Source: Neoscytalidium dimidiatum
Taxonomy: Eukaryota; Ascomycota; Dothideomycetes; Botryosphaeriales; Botryosphaeriaceae
Direction: 5' to 3'
NCBI GenBank assembly: GCA_037367355.1
Contig: CM074701.1
Span: 496,001-560,000 of the forward strand
Length of the DNA: 64,000 nucleotides
Below the pieces are notes generated by a model. It saw nothing but the letters and a program-made list of their open reading frames with translations. It ran no database searches and was not told the DNA's origin. The translations under genes were made by a program, and so were the position numbers. How positions within the stretch are numbered: the first letter of the stretch is position 1; every line of letters begins with the position of its first letter. Shown piece by piece: positions 7,686 through 8,329 of this stretch.

Positions 7686-8112
7686 TCAGCTCTGAGCAAG
7701 GATGTAACTGGAAGTTCCTGTCCGCGGGAAATCAGCTCTGGTGTTAGCCATCACGTCGATGGATATCCCCCAAGGCGTCTAAGGACAAGTTCCTTTGGAG
7801 TTGTCATATAAGCCCAATCGAAAATCTCAGTATCCTACAGAGGCCTCAAATTTTGAATAAGACATGAGAAAATGTTGTGTTGCAGTGGGGCCGCGGGCAG
7901 GATATTTGGCCGACGGTCCGTGTTTTCCCATCGCTACGGCACACAACCGTCAAACTTCAAAATGCTCTCCGGATTTTATCATTGATTTCCCTTTTTTTTT
8001 TTTTTTTGAATTCACAGCGAGAAATTTGCGTTGCAGTCTCCGCAGAGTGAATCTTCGATCGGTATACAAAGGCTACGGCCGGACCCGGCCCCCAACAACC
8101 TCCTCACACAAC
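7686..8112. other. intergenic with T16 tract, upstream of tRNA
   Basis: Spacer of 427 bp between the permease stop and the tRNA gene. It holds a run of 16 T at 7992-8007. No protein gene is supported. It contains the 5' flank of the tRNA gene. Confidence 0.5.
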
Positions 8113-8129
8113 GGTCTTGTGGTCTAGTG

Positions 8130-8184
8130 GTAAGTTCCACTTCTACGACAAGTTCCAGCGTAACAGTAGCGCTAACAAGCCCAG
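8130..8184 (+). other. mRNA-type intron in the tRNA D-loop
   Basis: The 55-nt insert starts GTAAGTTCC and ends GCCCAG, with CTAAC at 8172-8176, eight bases before the intron end. Removing it exactly restores TAGTGGTATGATT, the usual D-loop of this tRNA. The signals match introns of the neighbouring protein genes in length and motifs. Confidence 0.85.
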
Positions 8185-8203
8185 GTATGATTCTCGCTTA
8201 GGG

Positions 8204-8219
8204 CACACGCTGAGTTGCT
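8204..8219 (+). other. canonical tRNA intron (after position 37)
   Basis: The 16-nt insert lies one base 3' of the AGG anticodon, the standard place cut by the tRNA splicing endonuclease. It has no GT-AG ends, unlike the other two inserts. The exact border can slide by one T. Confidence 0.8.
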
Positions 8220-8239
8220 TGCGAGAGGCCCCGCGTTCG

Positions 8240-8297
8240 GTAAGTCGTCAATTCGATTCTTGATCGGGGAGTACAAGTCAACTAACAATCTTGAAAG
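8240..8297 (+). other. mRNA-type intron in the tRNA T-loop, with internal B-box-like motif
   Basis: The 58-nt insert starts GTAAGTCG and ends TTGAAAG, with CTAAC at 8282-8286, eleven bases before its end. Removal restores T-loop TTCGATC between perfectly paired T-stem strands. The insert itself holds TTCGATTC at 8252-8259, flanked by TCAA and TTGA, which resembles a second small T-arm and the core of a Pol III B box. Confidence 0.85.
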
Positions 8298-8324
8298 ATC
8301 CGCGGCAAGACCCGTTCACATATC

Positions 8325-8329
8325 TTTTT
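8325..8329 (+). terminator. Pol III T5 terminator
   Basis: A run of five T lies 12 bases after the tRNA 3' end, as expected for RNA polymerase III termination. It suggests the whole 201-bp unit is one Pol III transcript. Confidence 0.65.

Follow-up and report, generated by a model that had tools for sequence, protein, structure and literature searches.

Nine tRNA genes in the 43.8-Mb genome assembly of Neoscytalidium dimidiatum (40 contigs) carry ten GT-AG inserts at ectopic positions. Judging from sequence, it is highly probable that these inserts are U2-type spliceosomal introns in working RNA polymerase III (Pol III) tRNA genes, and that those in the T loop supply their own B box. Nuclear tRNA introns are generally regarded as substrates of the tRNA splicing endonuclease and a ligase; with the exception of a few algae, their site in eukaryotes is taken to be between positions 37 and 38 (37/38).

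A tRNA-Pro(AGG) gene with three introns

The window analyzed here is a 64,000-nt stretch (C7:496001-560000), and its interrupted tRNA gene lies on a 3.1-Mb contig, apart from the mitochondrial-looking contig C40. The tRNA genes of C40 (307,956 bases) are listed twice at an offset of ~176,850 bases, so this contig looks like one ~177-kb mitogenome assembled 1.7 times over.

An earlier note on the locus had claimed that removing two ectopic inserts and an ordinary tRNA intron leaves a tRNA-Pro(AGG) with perfect acceptor, anticodon, and T stems. Both coordinates and letters were confirmed (Table 1): the arithmetic is 201 - 55 - 58 - 16 = 72 nt, and the acceptor (GGTCTTG/CAAGACC, 7/7), anticodon (CTCGC/GCGAG, 5/5), and T stems (CCGCG/CGCGG, 5/5) are fully paired. 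The GTAAGT starts, CTAAC motifs, and CAG or AAG ends described there are likewise in place. The D-arm insert can be placed in five equivalent ways and the T-loop insert in two, GT-AG being one among them. The full signature, defined as a GTRAGT start, an AG end, and CTRAY close to the end, arose 0 and 1 times in 300,000 letter shuffles of each window insert.

Table 1. Features of the interrupted tRNA-Pro(AGG) locus (window positions)
Feature	Position	Strand	Remarks
Possible upstream TATA element, TATACAAAGG	8063-8072	+	
Whole tRNA-Pro(AGG) gene, containing two spliceosomal-type introns and an ordinary one at 37/38	8113-8313	+	72 nt once introns are removed
Exon 1: 5' acceptor strand and D arm through G18	8113-8129	+	
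A box, TGGTCTAGTGG	8120-8130	+	Intact
D-arm spliceosomal-type intron, GTAAGT...CTAAC...CAG	8130-8184	+	55 nt; at 18/19
CTAAC branch-site motif of D-arm intron	8172-8176	+	8 nt short of intron end
Exon 2: remaining D arm, 5' anticodon-stem strand, anticodon AGG	8185-8203	+	
Ordinary tRNA intron	8204-8219	+	16 nt; at 37/38
Exon 3: 3' anticodon-stem strand, variable loop, 5' T-stem strand, TTCG	8220-8239	+	
Own B box, 5' part (GTTCG)	8235-8239	+	Interrupted by T-loop intron; remainder ATCC at 8298-8301
T-loop spliceosomal-type intron, GTAAGT...CTAAC...AAG	8240-8297	+	58 nt; between G57 and A58
B-box-like motif within T-loop intron, ATTCGATTC	8251-8259	+	8/9 to GWTCRANNC (manual count)
CTAAC branch-site motif of T-loop intron	8282-8286	+	11 nt short of intron end
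Exon 4: T-loop end, 3' T-stem strand, 3' acceptor strand, discriminator	8298-8313	+	
TTTTT, likely Pol III terminator	8325-8329	+	First run of at least four T's past the gene

In the raw window, neither ARAGORN (run window-wide) nor Rfam gave a tRNA call, and ARAGORN made none on the raw locus with introns allowed. After both ectopic inserts were excised, ARAGORN called tRNA-Pro(agg). The A box is unbroken, as the D-arm intron begins with the very base that follows in the exon (the GTA of the intron repeats an exon GTA), and neither ectopic intron contains a run of four or more T's. The lengths of the inserts had also been likened to those of introns in nearby protein genes; the likeness holds for the two that were measured, both in an ISW1-like gene (54 and 71 nt), which start differently, with GTACGC and GTGCGT. 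The ISW1-like protein shares 90% identity with its counterpart in Phyllosticta citricarpa (Botryosphaeriales) and 89% with the one in Aplosporella prunicola; for a dipeptidyl peptidase, the nearest among the named relatives listed is Elsinoe (72%).

The window copy is the weakest case. Against the B box consensus, which we take to be GWTCRANNC, its intron motif ATTCGATTC has one mismatch and is equalled by GTACAAGTC, 31 nt into the same intron, which also scores 8/9; the offset of ATTCGATTC is about that of the exact B boxes in four sister introns. The 37/38 intron is altered as well: at one base it deviates from CCCTGAG, the sequence present in its three Pro(AGG) sisters.

Ten inserts in nine tRNA genes

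When the window locus was searched against the genome at the DNA level, three further Pro(AGG) genes emerged, each with a D-arm insert at 23/24 (GTGGTATG/GTRAGT...YAG/ATTC, slashes marking the insert ends); a D-arm insert is thus present in every one of the four Pro(AGG) genes found. The window D-arm intron, at 18/19, lies five bases upstream of the sister position, as would an independently gained intron or one that has slid. An A-box pattern, TGGTCTAGTGGTA with at most one mismatch, gave 43 matches, all of which were read; 23 of these are tRNA genes by reading, and ectopic GT-AG inserts occur in 8 of the 23, namely 4/4 Pro(AGG), 2/2 Pro(CGG), one Ala(CGC), and 1/5 Asp(GTC). The Asp count includes two genes on which ARAGORN was ambiguous and a third that it called Leu, all set as Asp by their likeness to C5:3361451. 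A motif search added Gly(TCC) as the ninth interrupted gene. T-loop inserts, all at 57/58, are thus present in six genes: the window Pro(AGG), both Pro(CGG) found, Ala(CGC), Gly(TCC), and one of the five Asp genes. These positions (18/19, 23/24, and 57/58, numbered by us) depart from the eukaryotic 37/38 rule. Nine of the ten inserts were first seen at the window or through searches that used no splice signal, the Gly insert through a splice-signal search. A search with RF00005 scored 63 of 1,020 candidates, and the numbers of tRNA genes and of interrupted genes are lower bounds. Four tRNA-Pro genes lie together within ~31 kb (C3:2859584-2890257): one TGG gene without an ectopic intron, two CGG genes with T-loop introns, and an AGG gene with a D-arm intron.

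The splice signals are nearly uniform. The inserts, 51 to 64 nt long, begin with GTAAGT in nine cases and GTGAGT in one (GTRAGT in 10/10), carry CTAAC (9/10) or CTAAT (1/10) 8 to 13 nt before the 3' end, and end in AG in every case. Once they were excised, ARAGORN recognized all nine genes: four as Pro(agg), two as Pro(cgg), and one each as Ala(cgc), Asp(gtc), and Gly(tcc). Unspliced, none of the six T-loop genes was called, and the three genes with only a D-arm insert were called with an oversized D loop, one of them being misidentified. The earlier note had read the two window inserts as spliceosomal-type introns in a nuclear tRNA gene; this remains the best reading, and the eight further genes strengthen it. 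The note had overlooked that the T-loop insert splits the B box, that sister inserts hold a putative substitute for it, and that inserts of this class occur in further isoacceptors as well.

A genome-wide pattern for such insertions that does not require a B box within the insert (GTTCR/GTRNGT...AG/ANNC) has 30 matches, consisting of the six tRNA genes and 24 non-tRNA controls. Excision restores a T stem of 5 bp in 6/6 tRNA genes and in 0/24 controls, which reach at most 4 pairs, and ARAGORN called none of the 24 controls a tRNA after excision.

Other candidates were rejected. D-arm introns in other tRNAs were sought with TAGTGGT-N0-6-GTRAGT (12 matches); three are the known Pro(AGG) genes, and the other nine are no tRNA by reading. 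A search for T-loop introns that combine an exact B box with a different 5' end gave 13 matches, of which four are known genes; of the other nine, C1:4127582 was inspected, and neither reading nor ARAGORN identified a tRNA there. The anticodon arm of Pro(TGG)/Pro(CGG), used as a pattern, had two matches, neither of them a tRNA by reading. The T-loop look-alike at C3:685851-685910 (TTCG/GTAGGT...CTAAC...CAG/ATCC) shares its flanks with the T-loop introns but lacks a B box and reads as a protein-gene intron. The sequence at C6:3632910, ~16 kb from the end of C6, recurs on the 20-kb contig C17 and is perhaps a subtelomeric repeat.

Promoter elements and signs of function

An insert at 57/58 breaks the B box, since this element spans T-loop bases; A58 and C61 are displaced. 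In every T-loop insert, TTCGA begins 12 to 16 nt from the 5' end. The B box is exact in four of the six inserts and matches at 8/9 in the other two (window and Gly, the latter without the final C). D-arm inserts never exceed 7/9 (0/4), and the three genes that have only these keep an uninterrupted B box. Among the 24 controls, none has an exact B box and one has an 8/9 match. A Fisher test of exact B boxes (4/6 versus 0/28) gives 3.2e-4 with the introns taken as independent, an assumption that fails at least for the two Pro(CGG) copies, there being some kinship among the introns. All nine genes have an intact A box, and a run of four or more T's begins within 15 nt of the gene end in 9/9. A run of five T's is absent from all inserts; TTTT occurs in the Gly insert and in an Ala(CGC) exon. 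The positions of A and B boxes in tRNA genes are described in the available part of PMC3978253.

The U6 gene (C5:1524025-1524126) is uninterrupted here. A B-box-like GTTCGAATCC lies directly behind its T-run terminator, a position resembling that of the downstream B box of budding yeast U6.

These features bear on whether the genes are merely dead or decaying copies, invaded by introns or intron-like elements, with working copies elsewhere or absent from the assembly. The weaker intron B box and changed 37/38 intron of the window copy would suit decay, as would the incomplete tRNA inventory (63 of 1,020 candidates scored with RF00005) and the four of five Asp genes that read without an insert. 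The mature sequence, however, is identical across the four Pro(AGG) genes, while 4/6 pairs of their D-arm inserts show no more likeness than shuffled sequences do; A boxes and terminators are unbroken throughout. As a refutation of its reading, the earlier note had named intact Pro(AGG) genes elsewhere together with a silent, decaying window locus; neither the 43 A-box matches nor a search with the spliced sequence turned up an uninterrupted Pro(AGG) or Pro(CGG) in this assembly. Nor is there a second Gly(TCC) among the four matches within two mismatches of the Gly 17-nt A box. Provided that the assembly and these searches are complete, interrupted genes must be the source of the Pro(AGG), Pro(CGG), and Gly(TCC) isoacceptors. 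We consider decay very unlikely.

Two Asp(GTC) genes, C5:3361451 and C6:3301915, are twins within the gene, though not in their flanks: one base of the ordinary intron sets them apart, as does a clean insert of 51 nt (GTAAGT...CTAACGGCTGAACAG) at 57/58. The insert-free gene is an empty site. The difference may represent a gain or a loss; an exact loss would hint at a spliced intermediate.

Removal and origin of the inserts, and comparison with known systems

The inserts could instead be ectopic bulge-helix-bulge introns cut by the tRNA splicing endonuclease, their GT-AG ends being incidental. Among tRNA genes, precedents for ectopic introns exist, according to the available part of PMC3978253: Cyanidioschyzon merolae has them in the D loop and the T loop, and the nucleomorph of Guillardia theta has others, many of which lack a defined motif. 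For the N. dimidiatum inserts we consider endonuclease cleavage highly improbable, even below decay. GTRAGT, CTAAY, and AG, signals that the endonuclease mechanism does not need, are found in 10/10 inserts, and the 4-bp central helix is found in 0/10 at any equivalent placement within 3 nt, the best pairing being 3/4 pairs in two inserts. The bulge-helix-bulge layout used here is the one we presume to be standard. Group I and group II self-splicing introns were rejected; their cores need some hundreds of nucleotides, and the 51- to 64-nt inserts have no Rfam match in the window. Least probable of all is expression by Pol II, with each gene transcribed alone or within a longer RNA and spliced, and the mature tRNA excised afterwards: spliceosomal splicing does normally act on Pol II transcripts, but the intact A box, the B-box-like motifs in the T-loop introns, and the T runs just past the genes are features of Pol III.

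If the inserts are spliceosomal introns, Pol III would transcribe each gene from its intact A box plus a B box, the T-loop introns offsetting the broken B box with one of their own 11 to 15 nt past the 5' splice site; an intron would then house part of the promoter. The ordinary spliceosome would recognize GTAAGT, CTAAC, and AG on the pre-tRNA and remove the D-arm and T-loop introns, and the endonuclease and ligase would take out the 37/38 intron to give a normal tRNA. Two machineries would thus act on one precursor. The tRNA splicing endonuclease measures from the folded tRNA body, and the spliceosomal step therefore probably precedes its own. From sequence features we infer the mode of transcription, the splicing machinery, the order of steps, and the function of the intron B box.

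Relatedness of the inserts was assessed by pairwise scores against 1,000 shuffles with the motifs held fixed (15 T-loop and 6 D-arm pairs). Among T-loop pairs, the observed score was reached by 0 shuffles for the window intron and ProCGG1, 0 for ProCGG1 and ProCGG2, and 7 for the window intron and ProCGG2; weaker likenesses link window to Gly (17) and Asp to Gly (23), and the other ten pairs (50 to 789) show nothing clear. For the D-arm inserts, the numbers are 11 (window and C11a), 15 (C11a and C11b), and 107 to 811 in the remaining four pairs. These scores indicate that the window T-loop intron is related to the Pro(CGG) T-loop introns. The scores fit the spread of a B-box-bearing intron among tRNA genes followed by divergence, but also selection for similar motifs. 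One DNA search of the genome with the window locus gave no match to the window inserts elsewhere.

Reverse splicing, already suggested in the earlier note, is a possible origin. It is tempting, though rather doubtful, to assume that the 57/58 introns form one lineage of promoter-carrying spliceosomal introns that spread among isotypes via reverse splicing, reverse transcription, and recombination. Because its B box lies at a near-fixed distance from the 5' splice site, such an intron could land within the B box of a tRNA gene and leave the gene active. A single lineage would make the spliceosome indispensable for several tRNAs.

Should the inserts be spliced as proposed, up to three isoacceptors of N. 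dimidiatum would depend on the spliceosome, and Pol III transcripts beyond U6 would be regular spliceosome substrates. Gene finders would miss such tRNA genes, as ARAGORN and Rfam missed the one in the window. Together with the empty and filled Asp twins, the B-box introns open spliceosomal intron gain to direct testing, because a promoter disrupted by an insertion has to be supplied by the insert or restored later.

Titles and abstract openings in the open-access literature yielded no description of nuclear tRNA genes with spliceosomal introns. Such a case is likewise absent from the available text of a tRNA-intron review (PMC4090602), in which the word element "spliceosom" does not occur, and of a review of permuted tRNAs (PMC3978253). 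The tRNAscan-SE 2.0 paper, as far as its text was available, describes eukaryotic tRNA genes as limited to one intron (PMC8450103).

Several known systems resemble the one described here in part. Ordinary 37/38 introns co-occur in these genes (e.g., the one in the window gene), but their position and removal signals differ. The introner-like elements of Dothideomycetes, in the same class of fungi, are a case of recurrent spliceosomal intron gain (PMC4457414, available part). Introner-like elements are characterized by numerous, nearly identical copies spread over many loci; the one DNA search made with the window locus gave no genomic copies of its inserts, and kinship is seen only among some tRNA inserts. 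The mRNA-type intron of fission yeast U6 snRNA, thought to stem from reverse splicing, is likewise of the spliceosomal kind and lies in a small, structured transcript of Pol III, and by analogy offers a precedent for the spliceosome acting on a Pol III transcript (PMC10484740, available part). There, however, the host is a component of the spliceosome and the intron lies near catalytic bases, and the part of that paper available mentions no promoter element in the intron; in N. dimidiatum, the interrupted genes encode tRNAs of five isoacceptors, and U6 has no intron. The closest likeness in position is to C. merolae and the G. theta nucleomorph, where nuclear-type tRNA genes have ectopic introns. 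According to the same partly available review (PMC3978253), C. merolae tRNA genes contain up to three introns, including ones in the D loop and T loop that often interrupt the A and B boxes, yet these introns are tied to the bulge-helix-bulge motif, and the TFIIIC components for A and B boxes have not been identified in that alga. The introns of N. dimidiatum differ in having GT-AG ends and branch sites in place of a central helix, and a B box inside the intron.
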